25,186 nucleotides of DNA from a virus, in the IMG/VR virus record IMGVR_UViG_3300031631_000021, positions 1 to 25,186 of that record; one strand, given 5' to 3'. A program made the position numbers and the translations under genes. Positions 1 to 25,186 of this stretch are shown one piece after another (the stretch's first letter is position 1; the number at the start of each line of letters is the position of its first letter). Under the pieces are notes generated by a model that saw only the letters and a program-made list of their open reading frames with translations, ran no database searches and was not told the origin of the DNA.

Positions 1-239
1 AAGATCAGCTTGGTGTGTTCCACATGATCGATGTCAACGGCACAAGTGCCGCTGGCCCCATGAAGCAAGCCCACGTTGTGCGTTGGGTTCTGCTCGTAAT
101 ACAGACGCGCTTTTTCTGGATCAGACAGTGCCTGCTCTGGCTTCTGCCATCCAAAGCGGGTTGGGCCTTTAGTCCCTGCTGGGATTGTGACCAAGAAAAA
201 ACCCATCTTCTCGCAATACTCTTCCACTTTTATTGTCAT
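1..239 (-). CDS. Primase-polymerase (Prim-Pol) domain protein, N-terminal fragment
   Basis: Partial gene reading leftward off the window edge; 79 codons are visible. It starts at ATG 239-237, preceded by AAGAGG (254-249) at good spacing. The translation has an N-terminal helix (TIKVEEYCEKMGF), then a PAGTKGP-TRFGWQ segment, NVGLLHGASGTCAVDID and H. The GLxxG-x-SG...DID pattern is the signature of the bifunctional DNA primase/polymerase N-terminal domain, in which the two Asp residues of DxD bind the catalytic metal. Known role of the family: primer synthesis in phage and plasmid replication, often fused to a helicase domain that would lie outside this window. It follows the HTH gene by 13 nt in the same direction, so the two are probably co-transcribed. 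Family fairly certain; domain composition downstream unknown. Confidence 0.8.
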   Translation of the reverse strand, partial: MTIKVEEYCEKMGFFLVTIPAGTKGPTRFGWQKPEQALSDPEKARLYYEQNPTHNVGLLHGASGTCAVDIDHVEHTKLI

Positions 240-252
240 TTTTTTTGACCTC

Positions 253-432
253 TTATTTATAGACGGTCAGATATTCTGACAATTTTCTCCAAGTGTTCAA
301 ACTGATTCGTTCGTTGCCCTGCTGCACGGCCTTTACGGTGGGGTGCGACAGCCCAGATTTCTGTGCGACAACGGTCAGCCTGCGATCTTGCAGTGCGTCC
401 CGTATGGTCTCAAGAGGTATCATATCGTCCAT
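253..432 (-). CDS. Small helix-turn-helix (XRE-like) regulator
   Basis: A 59-residue protein starting MDDMIPLETIRDALQ. The segment RRLTVVAQKSGLSHPTVKAV fits a helix-turn-helix: helix 2 (VVAQKSG), turn (LS), recognition helix (HPTVKAVQQG), followed by SLNTWRKLSEYL, a typical last helix of Cro/XRE-type domains. The start at 432 is preferred because GGAG (442-439) lies 6 nt upstream; an in-frame ATG at 444 would add four residues but has no ribosome binding site. It sits next to a cluster of TTTACA/TGTAAA half-sites (445-474) that separates it from the rightward operon, so autoregulation and control of the divergent early genes is the natural inference. It could be a Cro/CI-like switch protein, but no lysogeny gene is visible here. 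Confidence 0.75.
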   Translation of the reverse strand: MDDMIPLETIRDALQDRRLTVVAQKSGLSHPTVKAVQQGNERISLNTWRKLSEYLTVYK

Positions 433-444
433 TTTTCGCTCCAT

Positions 445-474
445 TTTACATTTGCTGTAAAAAGAGCTTTACAG
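445..474. promoter_or_regulatory. Putative operator with three half-sites in the divergent intergenic region
   Basis: TTTACA (445-450), TGTAAA (456-461) and TTTACA (468-473) form two overlapping inverted repeats with 5- and 6-nt spacers; the second is CTGTAAA/TTTACAG (455-461 and 468-474), perfect over 7 bp. The region lies between the minus-strand HTH gene and the plus-strand early operon. TTTACA also resembles a -35 hexamer (TTGACA), with a weak -10 candidate TAAACC at 491-496. Seen: the palindromes and their position. Inferred: binding by the adjacent HTH protein. Confidence 0.55.
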
Positions 475-548
475 TCTGAAACTTTAGGAGTAAACCAATT
501 TCTGTAGAAAATGTGAATGAATGAATGAAAACGAAAACGGAGAACGAA

Positions 549-932
549 ATGGACAATATCAATGTCGATATTCTTGCCACCGATTGGCTGGCAATTAAGG
601 CAGAAGAAAAGGCGCTGACAGCAAAGCGCCACGCGATTGAAGAGCAGATCGCAGCGGCCCTAGAAGTCAAAGACGAGGGGTCAATCTCCCACAAATTGGA
701 CGGCCATAAGATTACGCTGACACAGCCTGTCAGCCGTAAAGTTGATGCCATTGTGTGGGACAAACTCAGCCGTAAAATTCCAACTAGCCTACACCCTGTG
801 AAACACACAATCAGCGCAGATGCCGCTGGTTGCCGCTACTTGTTGGCTAATGAGCCAAAGTTGTGGGCCAAGATCGCGCCTGCCTTTGAAACCAAGGCTG
901 GCAAGATTGGCGTCAAGGTGGAGGCGCTTTGA
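549..932 (+). CDS. Conserved phage protein of unknown function (early operon leader gene)
   Basis: A 127-residue protein starting MDNINVDILATDWL. The ATG at 549 is chosen because GGAG (539-542) lies 6 nt upstream; an upstream in-frame ATG at 525 lacks a ribosome binding site. The N-terminal third (residues about 10-45) is charged and helical (AIKAEEKALTAKRHAIEEQI), probably a coiled coil, followed by a compact region with SHKLDGHKITLTQPVSRKVD and a C-terminal KIGVKVEAL strand. The general look (a helical start and then a small beta fold) recalls small phage proteins found next to Sak4/DUF669 recombination genes, but I recognise no named family. Its stop overlaps the next start (TGATG at 930-934), implying translational coupling. 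First gene of the rightward operon, facing the operator region. Confidence 0.8.
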   Translation: MDNINVDILATDWLAIKAEEKALTAKRHAIEEQIAAALEVKDEGSISHKLDGHKITLTQPVSRKVDAIVWDKLSRKIPTSLHPVKHTISADAAGCRYLLANEPKLWAKIAPAFETKAGKIGVKVEAL

Positions 933-1367: not shown

Positions 1368-1627
1368 TGGCTTGTTTGGTTTTTTTGACAACAAAAATTA
1401 TGGAAAAGACAAAACAAATCCTTGTCAATTTAGATCACGTTAAAATGATAGAAAAATTTGTCAGTGATGATGAAGACTTGGGTGGCAATCAATCAATGTT
1501 GATCTTTACTCAAGACGATAGTGGGTATGACATTTTACACGTTGTTGATGATCAACAGGAAATTATACAAAAAATGTTGTGGCGTACGGACAGGCAACCA
1601 ATGTGGAGGAATAATGATGGCGATTGA
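1367..1627 (+). CDS. Hypothetical acidic small protein
   Basis: An 86-residue protein. The start at 1367 has GGAGG (1354-1358) 8 nt upstream and overlaps the previous stop by 1 nt; an alternative ATG at 1400 lacks a ribosome binding site. Visible: a hydrophobic start (MACLVFLTTK), then VNLDHVKMIEKFVSDDED, SMLIFTQDDSGYDILHVVDD and QQEIIQKMLWRTD. The alternation of strands and helices suggests a small alpha/beta fold. No family is recognised. The gene is visibly more A+T rich than its neighbours, which is compatible with recent acquisition. Its last 11 nt overlap the following ATPase gene. Confidence 0.65.
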   Translation: MACLVFLTTKIMEKTKQILVNLDHVKMIEKFVSDDEDLGGNQSMLIFTQDDSGYDILHVVDDQQEIIQKMLWRTDRQPMWRNNDGD

Positions 1628-2372
1628 TCTTAAAACACTGAGCAAGCCATCGGGCCAGCGTCCGATTATAGCGACCATTTTTGGTGAAGGCGGGATGGGA
1701 AAAACAACACTGGCTTCTATGTTCCCGAACCCGGTTATAATTCGCACGGAGGACGGCACGGCCAGCCTGACGGGCAATGACAACGTCAGCCTGTTCCCAC
1801 TGTCCACATCCAGCCAAGATGTGCTGGACGCAATCGAGGCGCTTGCCACGCAAGACCACAATCACAAAACATTGGTGATTGATTCGATCACTCAGTTAGC
1901 GACGATAATTGAGTCAGAAATCGTAAATGCAGATGGTAAGGCCAAGTCGATTAATGCGGCGGCGGGAGGTTTTGGTGCTGGTCAATCTGCGGCGGCTGAA
2001 AAGCATCGCCAGATCAGAGACTGGGCTGGATCACTGGCATACGAAAAGGGCATGAATATAATCTTCATTGCCCATGCCGATACAGAACACTTGGAGCTAC
2101 CGGATAGCGATAGTTACTCAAGATACACGCTGCGGTTGCATCGTAAATCTTTGGCAAACTATACAGACAACGTCGATCTTGTGGCGATGATCAGGCTGAA
2201 AACTTTCGTCAGAAATGGCGAGGGCGACAAGAAACGTGCAATCAGTACGGGTGAGCGCGAAATCATCTGCCATCCGCAGGCGGCATCTATCACCAAAAAT
2301 CGTTTTAACATTAGTGAGCCGCTGCCGTTCACTTTTGACCGCAACCCTTTCGCAGACTTTTTAACAGAGTAG
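1617..2372 (+). CDS. AAA ATPase, Sak4-like single-strand annealing / RecA-like protein
   Basis: A 251-residue protein. Walker A is GEGGMGKT (residues 23-30), Walker B TLVIDS (85-90), and IIFIAHADTE (148-157) fits the position of a sensor strand. The layout (short N-terminus, P-loop within 30 residues, VIDS(I/L)T, then a C-terminal region with RLHRKSLANYTDNVDLV) matches the AAA_24 / Sak4 family of phage RecA-like proteins. Known role: ATP-dependent strand annealing or exchange, usually with a phage single-strand-binding protein. Starts at 1614 and 1617 are both ATG; GGAGG (1605-1609) is best spaced for 1617. The DUF669 gene follows 8 nt downstream, the usual pairing. Cytoplasmic. Annealing activity itself is inferred from family and context. 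Confidence 0.85.
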   Translation: MAIDLKTLSKPSGQRPIIATIFGEGGMGKTTLASMFPNPVIIRTEDGTASLTGNDNVSLFPLSTSSQDVLDAIEALATQDHNHKTLVIDSITQLATIIESEIVNADGKAKSINAAAGGFGAGQSAAAEKHRQIRDWAGSLAYEKGMNIIFIAHADTEHLELPDSDSYSRYTLRLHRKSLANYTDNVDLVAMIRLKTFVRNGEGDKKRAISTGEREIICHPQAASITKNRFNISEPLPFTFDRNPFADFLTE

Positions 2373-2380
2373 GAAAAGCA

Positions 2381-2845
2381 ATGGACTTTAGCAATATTAA
2401 CTTCGACGCCGTGGAAGTGGCACCATCTTTCGAGCCGCTCCCAGCAGGCAATTACAAGTGCGTGATTACTGACCGTGAGCAGAAGCCTACCAAAGCGCAG
2501 ACTGGATCATATCTTCAACTGAAAATCGAAGTGATTGAGGGCCACTACACTGGCCGTGTGGTGTTCGACAGATTGAACCTTGAGAACCCAAACGCCACCG
2601 CCGTTGAGATCGCAACTCGTACTTTGAAGTCGATTGGCGCGGCCTTACAGGTTCCGCTGCATAATTCAGAGGAATTGCTCGACAAGCCGCTGATGGTCAA
2701 GCTGGCGGTACGACCAGCGTCAAATGGCTATGACGCCAGCAATGACGTTAAGGGATACGCAAGCGCGGGTGCAGCCACAGCGGCTCCACAGGCGGCTCCA
2801 GCGGCGGCTCCACAGGCTGCCGCCGCCCCACCTTGGAAGCGATAA
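2381..2845 (+). CDS. DUF669-family single-strand DNA-binding protein
   Basis: A 154-residue protein. The N-terminus (MDFSNINFDAVE...PLPAGNYKCVITDREQKPTK) and the core (YLQLKIEVIEGHYTGRVVFDRLNLENPN) are hallmarks of DUF669, phage proteins that act as single-strand DNA-binding partners of annealing recombinases. DLLDKPLMVKL-like sequence (ELLDKPLMVKLAV, about residues 97-109) completes the beta-rich domain. The C-terminal tail (after about 125) is a flexible Ala/Pro run, AAPQAAPAAAPQAAAAPPW, ending KR; SSB tails often mediate protein contacts, although here the tip is basic rather than acidic. Ribosome site AGGAAAA lies just upstream. It follows the Sak4-like gene and precedes a hairpin at 2856-2879. 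Confidence 0.85.
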   Translation: MDFSNINFDAVEVAPSFEPLPAGNYKCVITDREQKPTKAQTGSYLQLKIEVIEGHYTGRVVFDRLNLENPNATAVEIATRTLKSIGAALQVPLHNSEELLDKPLMVKLAVRPASNGYDASNDVKGYASAGAATAAPQAAPAAAPQAAAAPPWKR

Positions 2846-2855
2846 CTATTTTGCG

Positions 2856-2882
2856 ATGGGGTGGCTTTCGCTGCCCCATTTT
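2856..2882 (+). terminator. GC-rich hairpin followed by four T (terminator or attenuator)
   Basis: ATGGGGTGGC (2856-2865) pairs with GCTGCCCCAT (2870-2879) over 10 bp with two G-T wobbles and a TTTC loop, followed by TTTT (2879-2882). It lies 10 nt after the DUF669 stop and 20 nt before the nuclease start. The T-run is short, so it may give partial termination or protect the upstream mRNA end. Confidence 0.55.
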
Positions 2883-2902
2883 ACAAATAGAGAGGAGCCG
2901 AG

Positions 2903-3820
2903 ATGAACCTTGAAAAATACATGCAGCCTACGACAGTGCAGGCCATTTACGAACACTACGAGGCCAGCCGCGATAACGGCCACAGGCCGCATCTTGGGGG
3001 GAGCCAGATAGGCAACCCGTGCAGTCGGGCATTGTGGTATCAGTTTCGACACGCAAGTACGCAGAGATTTGAGGGGCGTATGCTGCGCCTGTTTGAAACG
3101 GGTGACCGCGAGGAGGAGCGGATCGTGGCAAACCTTCGGGCGATTGGTGTCGAGGTGTGGGAGGTCGATCCAGAAACGGGCAAGCAGATTAATTATACGG
3201 CCTGCGGGGGTCACTTTGGATTGAGCCTAGACGGCATTGGAATTGGGTTTCCAGAAAGCGCAGAGCCGCACACTTTGGAATTTAAAACGATGAACGACAA
3301 GAGCTTTGCTCAGACCAAGATGAAGGGCGTCAGGATCAGCAAGCCGATCTATTGGGCGCAGTGCCAAGTTGGAATGCATCTGGCCGAAATTGATCGTTGC
3401 TATTTTTTCGCCGTGAATAAAAATAACGATGAGATTTACGCAGAGCGGATCAAGCGGGATCGGGCAGAGGGTGAGATGCTAATCAGCAAAGCCAGCAATA
3501 TCATCTTTGACGAAAAGCCACCCAGCAAAATCAGCCACGACCCGTCCAAGTTTGCCTGTAGATTTTGCAATTATATTCCGATTTGTCACGGCGGTGAATT
3601 GCCAGAAGTTAATGATCGGACGGACGCACACAGCACTCCAGAGCGGGACGGCACTTGGAGCCGCAAGGAGGGCGCGGGGGGCCACCTGTTTAATCCGTTT
3701 ATGGTGCCTGACGATTGGGAGATCATAGACGCTGGCGATGATTTTGTTGAGTATCAGACCCCACAGGGCGTCATTCGTAATCAAGACAACAGCGAAGAAT
3801 TGAGAGAACGGTTTTCGTGA
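2903..3820 (+). CDS. Cas4-like PD-(D/E)XK exonuclease with Fe-S cysteine signature
   Basis: A 305-residue protein. Nuclease motifs are visible: HFGLSLDG with Asp110, LEFK with Glu126-x-Lys128, and a helix YWAQCQVGMHL (150-160) that supplies the usual Gln. Cysteines C40 (GNPCSR), C219, C222 and C228 (CRFC...IC) match the one-plus-three arrangement that holds a 4Fe-4S cluster in Cas4/AddB-type nucleases. Known role: 5'-3' or 3'-5' resection of double-strand ends to feed an annealing protein. Placed directly after Sak4 and DUF669, so it probably provides the exonuclease of this recombination set. The C-terminus (after 240) is an extra domain rich in acidic residues with unknown role. Ribosome site GAGAGGAG is upstream. 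Its stop overlaps a 13-codon ORF. Confidence 0.82.
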   Translation: MNLEKYMQPTTVQAIYEHYEASRDNGHRPHLGGSQIGNPCSRALWYQFRHASTQRFEGRMLRLFETGDREEERIVANLRAIGVEVWEVDPETGKQINYTACGGHFGLSLDGIGIGFPESAEPHTLEFKTMNDKSFAQTKMKGVRISKPIYWAQCQVGMHLAEIDRCYFFAVNKNNDEIYAERIKRDRAEGEMLISKASNIIFDEKPPSKISHDPSKFACRFCNYIPICHGGELPEVNDRTDAHSTPERDGTWSRKEGAGGHLFNPFMVPDDWEIIDAGDDFVEYQTPQGVIRNQDNSEELRERFS

Positions 3821-15298: not shown

Positions 15299-16404
15299 TA
15301 TATTTCCTTCGCTTTATATAGCACAGACCAGTCAGTTTTTTCGCAGAAGAAGCCAACCGACCAGCAAATTGGTTCCAGAATTTTTCGATAAATCTTGCCC
15401 AAGTAGTCGGGCTTGTCGCGCTTGCCATAGATAAATGCAATTTCGTTGGCTCTGTGTTGGGCCAAGTGCCGCCACAGCTTTACGCCTCGGCCCTTACGCA
15501 TTTGTTTTACAACGTGTACGGCCCATACGTGATATCCATTGACGTGCTGTGGCGTCAGGTGGTCTTTTGTAAAGCGATAGTCCAGCAATACGTCCTGCCT
15601 GCTCATTACGCCCTGACGCTGTAGTTCGTTGCAGATCACACGGCCACCAAGCGATGCTCCAATAAATCCACCAATACCGGGCAAAATCATGTTGCCAATT
15701 GCAGCACCAACGCCAGCCTTTACGCCGCCCTTTGCCGCATCTTTAAAATCTTCCCCCGCCAAAAGACCACCAATGGCCCGACCAGCGCCGTATCCATATC
15801 CTACGTTTGCGCCTGCTGCTTTAGGAGCCTTTGCCCCGCCAAACATTGACTTACCCGCTGCGGCGAAAGATTCAGCGGGACTTAATCCTTCTATGAGTTC
15901 AACGCCTTTACTTGCATCTCTTCCCAACATAAAGCGCCCGACATTACCGCCGAAATATGTTCCAATGTCTCCACCAGCAGCAATAGCTGCGGCCTTCATT
16001 GCGGCGGCACCGTTGTCTCCCTGATTAAAGTCAGTATTTGCTGCCGTCCCAAACGGGGCGTCTTCACCCTCAAATGTCACTCCAGCAAAATCTGTTTTGT
16101 CGGGGAATGTGACGGTGCGCGTTGGCACACGATTAAAGAAATCATACATTGGCGCTGCGCCAGTACCGTAAACGTCCTGCAATCGCACCCCCGCTTCAAG
16201 CTCTGGAAGCTCTGTCTGCTCAAGCTGATAAAGCTGCAACGCATTCATGCCGTCCTCAGTAGTTAATCCACCAAGGCTACCGAGAGGGTCTGCAAGAGCA
16301 ACGCCGTTCTCATCTGTTATCGCCACGCCGTTTTCGTCATACTGAACGCCACTCATCCTGATAGCTCCACTTTCAATCAGAAAATCTATAGGTATTCTTG
16401 CCAT
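15298..16404 (-). CDS. Virion protein with C-terminal VICNEL domain
   Basis: A 368-residue protein starting MARIPIDFLIESGAIRMSG. Residues about 20-40 hold two short repeats NGVAITDENGVALAD. The middle (130-250) is Ala/Gly-rich with helical hydrophobic stretches (IGNMILPGIGGFIGASLGGR), suggesting a membrane-active segment. The C-terminal domain, from RVICNELQRQGVMSRQDVL to KILEPICWSVGFFCEKTDW, has conserved-looking Cys and Trp residues (VICNEL, GYHVWAVHVVKQMRKG) and matches a domain I recall at the end of internal virion or ejection proteins in marine phages. The transition from low-complexity to this basic, aromatic domain suggests a fusion. It overlaps the genes on each side by 1 nt. Confidence 0.68.
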   Translation of the reverse strand: MARIPIDFLIESGAIRMSGVQYDENGVAITDENGVALADPLGSLGGLTTEDGMNALQLYQLEQTELPELEAGVRLQDVYGTGAAPMYDFFNRVPTRTVTFPDKTDFAGVTFEGEDAPFGTAANTDFNQGDNGAAAMKAAAIAAGGDIGTYFGGNVGRFMLGRDASKGVELIEGLSPAESFAAAGKSMFGGAKAPKAAGANVGYGYGAGRAIGGLLAGEDFKDAAKGGVKAGVGAAIGNMILPGIGGFIGASLGGRVICNELQRQGVMSRQDVLLDYRFTKDHLTPQHVNGYHVWAVHVVKQMRKGRGVKLWRHLAQHRANEIAFIYGKRDKPDYLGKIYRKILEPICWSVGFFCEKTDWSVLYKAKEI

Positions 16405-23740: not shown

Positions 23741-25186
23741 TTATTCGCCCCATCCATCTTCTCCCCAGCCAGCATTGCCCCAGCCAAGTATATCTATGCT
23801 TTCATTTCCAACGCCACCCGTGCCACCAACGCCAGTCTCTACTTTTTCAAGCTGCACTGTTTCTGCACCTACATCGCCGTCTCCAGCCACTCCAGCAGCG
23901 TCTTCTGTGCCTTCTTCGGTTATTGTGCCAATTGCACCTGTGCCACCAACGCCAGTTTCAGAAATTGATAGCTCCAGTGCCTCTGTGCCAATTGCACCTG
24001 TGCCACCAACGCCAGTCTCTGTCACTGTAATTTCTAATACTTCAGCACCGACTGCGCCCGTTCCAGAAACACCCGCTTCTATTATTTCAAGCTGAATAAT
24101 TTCTGGCCCAATTTCGCCATCACCAGCCACTCCAGACTGAGGCTTGGTTAATTCAAAGCTAGACGCTCCAATTGCACCAGTTCCAGCAACTCCAGTAGGC
24201 TCAACTGTTAAATCAGCAACGTATGTTGGATTGCCGATTGCACCTGTGCCGCCAACACCAGCTTCATCAATTGATATTTCAAGAGCCTCAACGCCAACCG
24301 CGCCAGCCCCTCCACCACCAGAAACTCCGCTTGGATGCGCGACAGGAATTTCAACACCGACATCACCGCTTCCAGAAACTCCAGATTGAGTTTTGGTTAA
24401 TTCAAAGCTAGATGCTCCAACACCGCCATTGCCAGCCAGCCCAGAAACAGCTTCTGACATTTCTGGAGTTTCTGCGCCGATTGCTCCTGTCCCAGAAACA
24501 CCAGTCGCATTTTCTGTGCCTTCTTCGGTTATGTTTCCAACCGCCCCTGCGCCACCAACACCATCTTCTGCTATTGATAGTTGAATAGTTTCAGAGCCTA
24601 CATCACCATTTCCAGATACACCATTTGGCGTTGGCATAACTGATGGGGTCTCGACCCCAACGTCTCCTGCGCCACCGCTTGCAGAAACACCTGTCACAAA
24701 TGCCGCAGGGATTTCATCCCCAACGTCACCATCACCAGCCACACCAGATTGAGGCTTGGTTAATTCAAAGCTAGACGCTCCAATTGCACCAGTTCCAGCA
24801 ACACCAGCTTCTATTATTTCGAGCTGAACAATTTCATCCCCAATTCCTCCTGAACCACCAACGCCATTTACATCAAAATTTGTGTTAATAATTAAAGATG
24901 AAAGTCCAGAAAACGCTGTACCAGCAATCCCAACATTAGTTGTTAATTTGCGATCAGCAAATATGTCGAAATTAAAACCAATAAATACCTCTACATTTTC
25001 GGGATCGTTATCGGGCCGTGGATTAAACAGGGCGGTAGCGTCAACGACATTTTTTGCAGGCGTTAGCTGTGGGTTTTTGGGTTCCCAATCTTCTGGCGAT
25101 ACGCGCAGGCCGTCCCAAGTCGTTTTTAATTGCGTATAGGGAACCCGAAGGCCACTTCTATCGCTAATCGCTTGAGATTTTTTGCC
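23741..25186 (-). CDS. Neck/tail protein with expanded Gly-rich repeat array (5' end missing)
   Basis: Open on the minus strand to the right edge: 481 residues visible, start outside. N-terminal part GKKSQAISDRSGLRVPYTQL then KTTWDGLRVSPEDWEPKNPQL resembles a known phage structural protein with SDRSG..(F/V)PY.....W.G..V...(D/E)(W/F)EPK.PQL. After about residue 105 there follow about 18 units of about 20 residues with the core GV(G/A/S)GTGAIG, such as AGVAGTGAIGASSFELTKPQ and TGVGGTGAIGTEALELSISE. The end is DILGWGNAGWGEDGWGE, a WGxxGWGxxGWG motif. The array could be a fibrous spacer or surface appendage; role not established. Located before the adaptor, so it is neck or tail associated. Confidence 0.75.
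   Translation of the reverse strand, partial: GKKSQAISDRSGLRVPYTQLKTTWDGLRVSPEDWEPKNPQLTPAKNVVDATALFNPRPDNDPENVEVFIGFNFDIFADRKLTTNVGIAGTAFSGLSSLIINTNFDVNGVGGSGGIGDEIVQLEIIEAGVAGTGAIGASSFELTKPQSGVAGDGDVGDEIPAAFVTGVSASGGAGDVGVETPSVMPTPNGVSGNGDVGSETIQLSIAEDGVGGAGAVGNITEEGTENATGVSGTGAIGAETPEMSEAVSGLAGNGGVGASSFELTKTQSGVSGSGDVGVEIPVAHPSGVSGGGGAGAVGVEALEISIDEAGVGGTGAIGNPTYVADLTVEPTGVAGTGAIGASSFELTKPQSGVAGDGEIGPEIIQLEIIEAGVSGTGAVGAEVLEITVTETGVGGTGAIGTEALELSISETGVGGTGAIGTITEEGTEDAAGVAGDGDVGAETVQLEKVETGVGGTGGVGNESIDILGWGNAGWGEDGWGE
23800..24870 (-). repeat. Tandem 60-bp-class coding repeats in the neck protein
   Basis: About 18 in-frame units, most exactly 60 bp (20 codons), each with a core encoding GVxGTGAIG. 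24121-24190 and 24733-24802 match at 68 of 70 bases, and 33 bases at 23924-23956 recur exactly at 23984-24016. High identity between distant units points to recent duplication or conversion. Confidence 0.85.

Follow-up and report, generated by a model that had tools for sequence, protein, structure and literature searches.

Between two divergent early operons of the virus record IMGVR_UViG_3300031631_000021 lies a cluster of TTTACA half-sites beside a gene for a small helix-turn-helix (HTH) protein, and the question that it raises is whether these half-sites are read by that protein, by RNA polymerase, or by both. The window analysed here is the whole of this virus record, 25,186 bases. The first-pass annotation had seen in the cluster two overlapping palindromes, TTTACA-N5-TGTAAA-N6-TTTACA, whose common middle half-site would make the binding of HTH dimers mutually exclusive and so create a switch. 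The pattern itself is present exactly (TTTACA at 445-450, TGTAAA at 456-461 and TTTACA at 468-473, with spacers N5 and N6), ending at 473 where 474 had been given. It is unique in the 25,186 bases when up to 3 mismatches are allowed (2 of 100 dinucleotide shuffles held one), and TTTACA as such is over-represented in the window, with 25 sites against a shuffle mean of 13.8 and a shuffle maximum of 21. Fifteen bases beyond the third half-site there is a fourth, overlooked in the first-pass annotation, at 489-494 (plus strand AGTAAA, minus strand TTTACT). Followed in the direction of the regulator gene, the region thus reads H4 TTTACT (494-489)-N15-H3 TGTAAA (473-468)-N6-H2 TTTACA (461-456)-N5-H1 TGTAAA (450-445), GGAG, ATG 432. 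H1 (445-450, minus strand), directly upstream of the HTH Shine-Dalgarno sequence, and H2 (456-461, minus strand), the half-site formerly regarded as shared, make up the N5 dyad; H3 (468-473, plus strand, TTTACA) and H4 (489-494, minus strand, TTTACT) make up what we call the H4/H3 core. An extra half-site between H4 and H3, considered by eye, was dropped as its register was not fixed.

The placing of this region between an HTH/primase operon and a recombination operon agrees with the gene matches (PHROG 18104, PF09250, Sak4-like, Cas4-domain): it separates a leftward HTH/Prim-Pol operon from a rightward DUF7173/Sak4/SSB/Cas4-exonuclease operon. The gene for the small XRE/Cro-like HTH regulator (253-432, minus strand; 59 amino acids counted from the ATG at 432) matches PHROG 18104 ('transcriptional regulator'); its likely start is this ATG, with GGAG at 442-439 ahead of it, and not 444, an arrangement shared with many relatives. 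Next in the same direction is the start part of a Prim-Pol DNA primase/polymerase gene (3-239, minus strand; PF09250, E=5e-11), which is cut by the end of the record. The rightward operon is led by a DUF7173 gene (549-932, plus strand; start placed by GGAG at 539-542, with a longer frame from 525), and its recombination genes (1521-3820, plus strand) encode a Sak4-like annealing protein (AAA_24), a DUF669/SSB protein and a Cas4-domain exonuclease. The DUF7173 leader contains a short tandem repeat of the ATGA type at 511-528, which by eye is present in some relatives and absent from others. At the far end of the record a long open frame of glycine-rich repeat units (GVGGTGAIG-like; 23741-25186, minus strand) is likewise cut.

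The reading we favour, which we place somewhat on the probable side of even, is that H4 and H3 are the -35 elements of superimposed, back-to-back sigma-70-type promoters and that a separate candidate HTH operator would serve Cro-like autorepression. The relatives on which this draws came from a search with the HTH protein, which gave at least 80 viral loci, a profile search that added more (at least 80 among the matches listed) and a search of a genome collection, which gave 2 loci. The resulting 238 sequences, many of them one contig repeated, included 203 with the HTH gene, and these reduced to 67 distinct 190-base upstreams. One roseophage-type locus, L237, sits in a contig labelled as a Gammaproteobacteria MAG, and is perhaps a phage contig binned with the MAG. 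The nearest cultured phages among the matches listed are the Roseobacter phages CRP-901 and CRP-902 (OQ401623, OQ401624), which have the same gene layout and order and HTH proteins 63% and 68% identical to that of the window. Their genes labelled 'oxidoreductase' (L162 3904-4848, L163 4070-5014) are about 63% identical to the window protein that matches PHROG 1990, the Cas4-domain exonuclease, and this public label looks wrong. The core, as TTTAC-N17-GTAAA with the same spacing, is found in 66 of the 67 distinct upstreams among the matches listed, the sole exception being the distant L079, which stands outside the core-selected profile. Taken as 86-base segments, these 66 give 49 distinct forms, which fall into 20 clusters at 85% identity; H4 appears as TTTACA in 22 of the 49, as TTTACT in 18 and as TTTACG in 9, and H3 as TGTAAA in 43, with AGTAAA in the other 6. 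Within the window the core occurs at 1 exact place and at 1 place with 1 mismatch (15907-15933; 17 of 100 shuffles have two or more), and of 10 records 8 have it, each at a single place, among them the whole genomes of CRP-901 and CRP-902, where it has the form TTTACA-N15-TGTAAA. A regulon built on the core was rejected, as none of the 10 records has a second core place; the relaxed N5 dyad occurs once each in 3 of the same 10.

The strongest competitor holds that all four half-sites are HTH operators, with dimers on H2/H1 and on the two-turn H4/H3 pair, perhaps cooperatively, so that a -35-like sequence doubles as operator and both promoters are repressed. The hexamers at the four sites are indeed nearly identical, the H4 and H3 centres are 21 bp, or two helical turns, apart, and H4/H3 shares its inward orientation with H2/H1. 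Against this stands the behaviour of the core in other lineages. A search with a distant HTH relative gave 39 loci. In what we term group B, TTTACA-N15/16-TGTAAA is present in 25 of 25 loci (N15 in 18, N16 in 7) beside HTH proteins with the recognition helix HRNTIAAIR and near forms, which differs from the helix of the window regulator; six of these proteins are identical to the latter at 17/54 to 21/52 residues (31-40%). In group C together with L270, with the helices HRNTIAHLR and HRNTITAIR, the core is instead TTGACA-N20 to N22-TGTCAA in 8 of 10 loci, L245 and L246 being the two that did not match. L238, L242, L273 and L275 were excluded from these counts, and L275 shows no core. Six of these loci have a divergent gene order of the same kind, their ORFs being identified by eye, and superimposed -35 elements also occur in XX1924 and MW202867, where the neighbouring HTH protein seems to be of a different type. 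Since the same core occurs beside different helices and different cores beside similar ones, the H4/H3 core does not behave like an operator tied to the HTH regulator. A spacing of 15 or 16 bases in one group and of 20 to 22 in another also breaks the phasing expected of bound dimers, and this difference of about half a helical turn suits two independent promoters rather than one dimer site. On balance we find the all-operator reading doubtful.

A more sceptical alternative is chance or shared ancestry, by which AT-rich intergenic repeats would have been kept through recent descent as a pattern with no regulatory role. Many of the relatives are close, and the promoter score of the window is at shuffle level. 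The perfect conservation of the core letters in the 49-segment profile is moreover a product of construction, the profile having been chosen for the core, and was not counted; the same applies to the first rank of H4/H3 among long-arm dyad centres (9.44 against 4.60 for the next of 116 centres), which results from segment choice. Conservation was for this reason determined again from the full set of 67 upstreams (22 clusters), aligned with MAFFT and not selected for the core. Here mean information is 1.73 bits in H4 and 1.82 in H3, 1.55 in H2 and 1.19 in H1, as against 0.81 in the 15-base spacer between H4 and H3 and 1.08 over all upstream columns. That the two hexamers are kept while the spacer varies, together with the recurrence of the H4/H3 pair in distant groups, makes an origin without function improbable.

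The likeliest operator of the HTH protein is the N5 dyad H2/H1 (445-461, 17 bp, half-site centres 11 bp apart), an assignment drawn from conservation that could go either way. AlphaFold2 predicts the protein to have four helices (mean pLDDT 84), consistent with a small all-helical HTH fold. It has no Pfam family at E 0.001 and no Foldseek match at E below 0.001; the Foldseek matches are XRE-type folds (HipB, Aca11, AcrIIA15, restriction controller proteins and 434 Cro), the best being HipB, Aca11 and AcrIIA15, all with E above 0.02. The dimensions of the N5 dyad are in keeping with binding by XRE-type dimers. In the profile of relatives, H2/H1 comes first among 124 short-arm dyad centres (7.84, the runner-up having 4.94), and its conservation is also the most mirror-symmetric (r 0.93). 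It is the sole N5 dyad in the window at up to 1 mismatch, but 46 of 100 shuffles also hold one. The dyad ranks first, yet H2 is degraded even beside an HTH protein identical to that of the window. In CRP-902 and CRP-901 the pair differs from that of the window, being TTTGCA-N5-TGCAAA and TTTGCA-N5-TATAAA, respectively. Group B loci show no downstream dyad comparable to H2/H1 (19 distinct forms among the 24 loci used, L257 being left out for its short flank). One of them, L272, has a TTGTGCA-N4-TGCACAA dyad just upstream of the regulator gene, possibly an operator for its different recognition helix.

The palindromes of the first-pass annotation therefore fare unequally: the N5 pair does look like a dimer site, with its first rank and mirror-symmetric conservation, but the N6 pair (H3/H2) ranks only eighth of the 124 centres. 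Of the half-sites sought at the equivalent place in relatives, H3 is kept and H1 mostly so (TGYAAA, that is TGCAAA or TGTAAA, in 39 of the 49 distinct segments), but the supposedly shared H2 is TTTACA or TTTGCA (TTTRCA) in only 20 and degraded in 29 (TTTTGA in 21, TTTGTA in 5, TTTTGT in 3). An HTH protein identical to that of the window accompanies 4 of the distinct segments, and even of these 3 have TTTTGA or TTTTGT in place of H2. The exact triple survives in 3 of 49 segments; a version relaxed to purine/pyrimidine, which is the best that can be said for a shared H2 beyond the exact pattern at 445-473, occurs in 15 of 49 and in 11 of the 20 clusters. As the half-sites face inward in the N5 pair and outward in the N6 pair, one dimer should not be able to read both. 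We consequently reject, on conservation and dyad ranking, a switch in which HTH dimers exclude each other through H2, and consider it very improbable. Scarcely credible is control at the RNA level by alternative H3:H2 and H2:H1 hairpins in the HTH leader beside the Shine-Dalgarno sequence, which we also reject: H2:H1 can pair as UUUACA/UGUAAA and is compensated in CRP-902 as UUUGCA/UGCAAA, but shuffled sequences fold as well as the three leaders examined (z -0.92, -0.07 and -0.82), H3 would fall outside the predicted leftward transcript, upstream of its start, and among the 49 distinct segments pairing is kept by TTTACA/TGTAAA (4), TTTGCA/TGCAAA (3) and TTTGCA/TGTAAA (4), with an A-C mismatch in TTTACA/TGCAAA (4) and further breakage in most other combinations.

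We return to the superimposed promoters, whose activity we infer from the following features. A rightward, recombination-ward promoter is quite probably present with H3 as its -35 and TAAACC (491-496, plus strand) as its -10, separated by a 17-bp spacer and with a predicted start near 503. A leftward, HTH/primase-ward promoter, a little less surely but still likely, would have H4 as its -35 and TAAAGC (466-471, minus strand) as its -10, again over 17 bp and with a predicted start near 459. TTTACA-17-TAAACC and TTTACT-17-TAAAGC occupy the same bases, each -35 overlapping the opposite -10. At the predicted rightward start is a TGTAGA hexamer (503-508, plus strand) with high information in the profile of relatives; several loci of group C have a resembling CTCTACA, on the opposite strand, ahead of their core. 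Both proposed -10 elements are weak, without the final T (position -7), and TTTAC is without the G of TTG; more than 60% of alphaproteobacterial sigma-70 promoters are without T at -7 in a survey of mapped starts (PMC8407463). A simple promoter scan called no promoter at this place, and the superimposed-promoter score of the window alone is 15 against a shuffle mean of 14.8 (p 0.70), with CRP-901 and CRP-902 likewise not above shuffles (p 0.46 and 0.42). The score being at chance in the window, the case for promoters rests on comparison among lineages.

This comparison gave mixed results for the score and clearer ones for the pattern. In the first scored set, p was above 0.05 in 15 of 21 sequences and 0.002-0.006 in L080, L245, 1N2-2, XX1924, MW202867 and, with the pair in a different register, L247; the best-scoring pair lies off the core in L237, and in L069 just one member of it falls on the core. 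All 8 of the second scored set had p above 0.05 (RSU-F4K5, Sf11, SECphi27, Rogue1, H40/1, C7, and the lambdoid controls MPK9 and K242). L283, L285, L286, L287, L288 and L292 stand outside the final scored tests, and L299 repeats L297. Near-consensus superimposed pairs are seen in Idiomarinaceae phage 1N2-2 (TTGACT-17-TATGAT / TTGACA-17-TAGATT) and Alteromonas phage XX1924 (TTGACT-17-TATTGT / TTGACA-17-TAAATT), as well as in L080 and L245 of group C and in MW202867. Across 14 modules a recombination-ward TT[T/G]AC.-N17/18-TA is present in 13 against an expected 0.59, and mirror, that is fully superimposed, pairs in 8 against 0.21, figures that are post hoc, the pattern having been picked after most modules had been seen, and that come from modules not all independent, C/D, E/F, J/K and L/M looking related. 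With the pattern fixed, seven further modules showed the recombination-ward promoter in 6 (expected 0.28, P 2e-9), or in 5 of 6 without phiHSIC, whose sequence had been inspected before, and a mirror pair in 1 (RHEph05; expected 0.08, P 0.08); the promoters of KL1, and also those of RSU-F4K5 from the second scored set, are back to back and do not coincide, and AH2 has neither pattern. These seven are heterogeneous: 1) the first leftward gene is annotated as an endonuclease in RcTitan and as a primase in RHEph05; 2) it is unnamed in Halfdan and phiAxp-1; and 3) the gene past the HTH gene of phiHSIC lies on the opposite strand. VaS_L1, a near copy of phiHSIC, was omitted from the tally. Pseudoalteromonas phages C7 and H40/1, which have this same layout, carry TTTACA and TTGACG respectively before an identical 17-TAAAGT, an exchange that supports TTTACA as a -35; in these two and in Sf11 the HTH gene is not immediately followed by the primase on its strand. 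As a general rule for the module, superimposed promoters hold only in part; the predicted superimposed geometry is a property of some lineages, that of the window included, and not of the whole module.

On the favoured reading, host RNA polymerase would use the H4/H3 core in one orientation or the other but not in both at once, because the -35 of each promoter overlaps the -10 of its partner. Any real mutual exclusion would hence lie between two orientations of the polymerase. The HTH protein on 445-461, covering the first bases of the predicted leftward transcript, would lower transcription of its own operon, and the leftward shut-off would free the shared core for transcription of the recombination operon. 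We infer this binding and this switch logic as well, and the overlapping promoters are the firmer part of the proposal.

Among known systems, the nearest is that of the Bacillus subtilis plasmid pLS20, described as having coincident divergent promoters Pr and Pc beside the regulator gene, with boxes that would coincide (PMC4207663). In both, the regulator gene and the main operon diverge, and in the window, too, the proposed -35 and -10 coincide with the opposite -10 and -35, though its score has p 0.70; by these coinciding boxes the region is probably of the Pr/Pc type. They differ in that for pLS20 the starts and regulator binding were measured and DNA looping between two operators is described, whereas the present region is from a phage and known from its sequence; half-site pattern searches of the window found no second operator region. 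Bidirectional promoters of Escherichia coli (Warman/Grainger) are described as pseudo-symmetric DNA on which RNA polymerase takes two mutually exclusive orientations, with shared -10 bases and possible polymerase competition (PMC12825309). The window region is not of this class, since its proposed -10 elements are separate (466-471 and 491-496) and overlap the opposite -35 instead. CRP-901 and CRP-902 are described as strictly lytic and without lysogeny genes, and a term search of the main text of that paper found no mention of a promoter or repressor (PMC10149686). Among the titles and abstracts listed by searches of an open library for overlapping divergent phage promoters and for Sak4/primase, none gives a description of this region. 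In cro-repressor immunity regions of the lambda/P22 type a small Cro/XRE-like protein stands beside divergent early promoters. The window resembles these in that such a protein adjoins its predicted divergent early promoters, but its opposite operon starts with DUF7173 and Sak4 and not with a repressor, and in place of several similar operators in one orientation it has a single N5 dyad at up to 1 mismatch. The region would appear to be a conserved example of an already known kind of control region.

A broader proposal, which we put forward only tentatively, is that this is a recurrent phage device in which one mirror-image stretch of DNA drives both the HTH/primase and the Sak4 operons, the orientation of the polymerase decides between them and the HTH protein biases the choice by closing one side, the geometry having been kept or re-created across phages of several host groups despite exchange of the regulator type. 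Natural superimposed promoters that differ in strength and regulator would be useful for learning how polymerase orientation is chosen. The locus also indicates that a palindrome beside an HTH gene need not be the operator of that protein, and, for phages akin to the marine roseophages CRP-901 and CRP-902, it may provide a site at which control over the timing of early genes can be tested.
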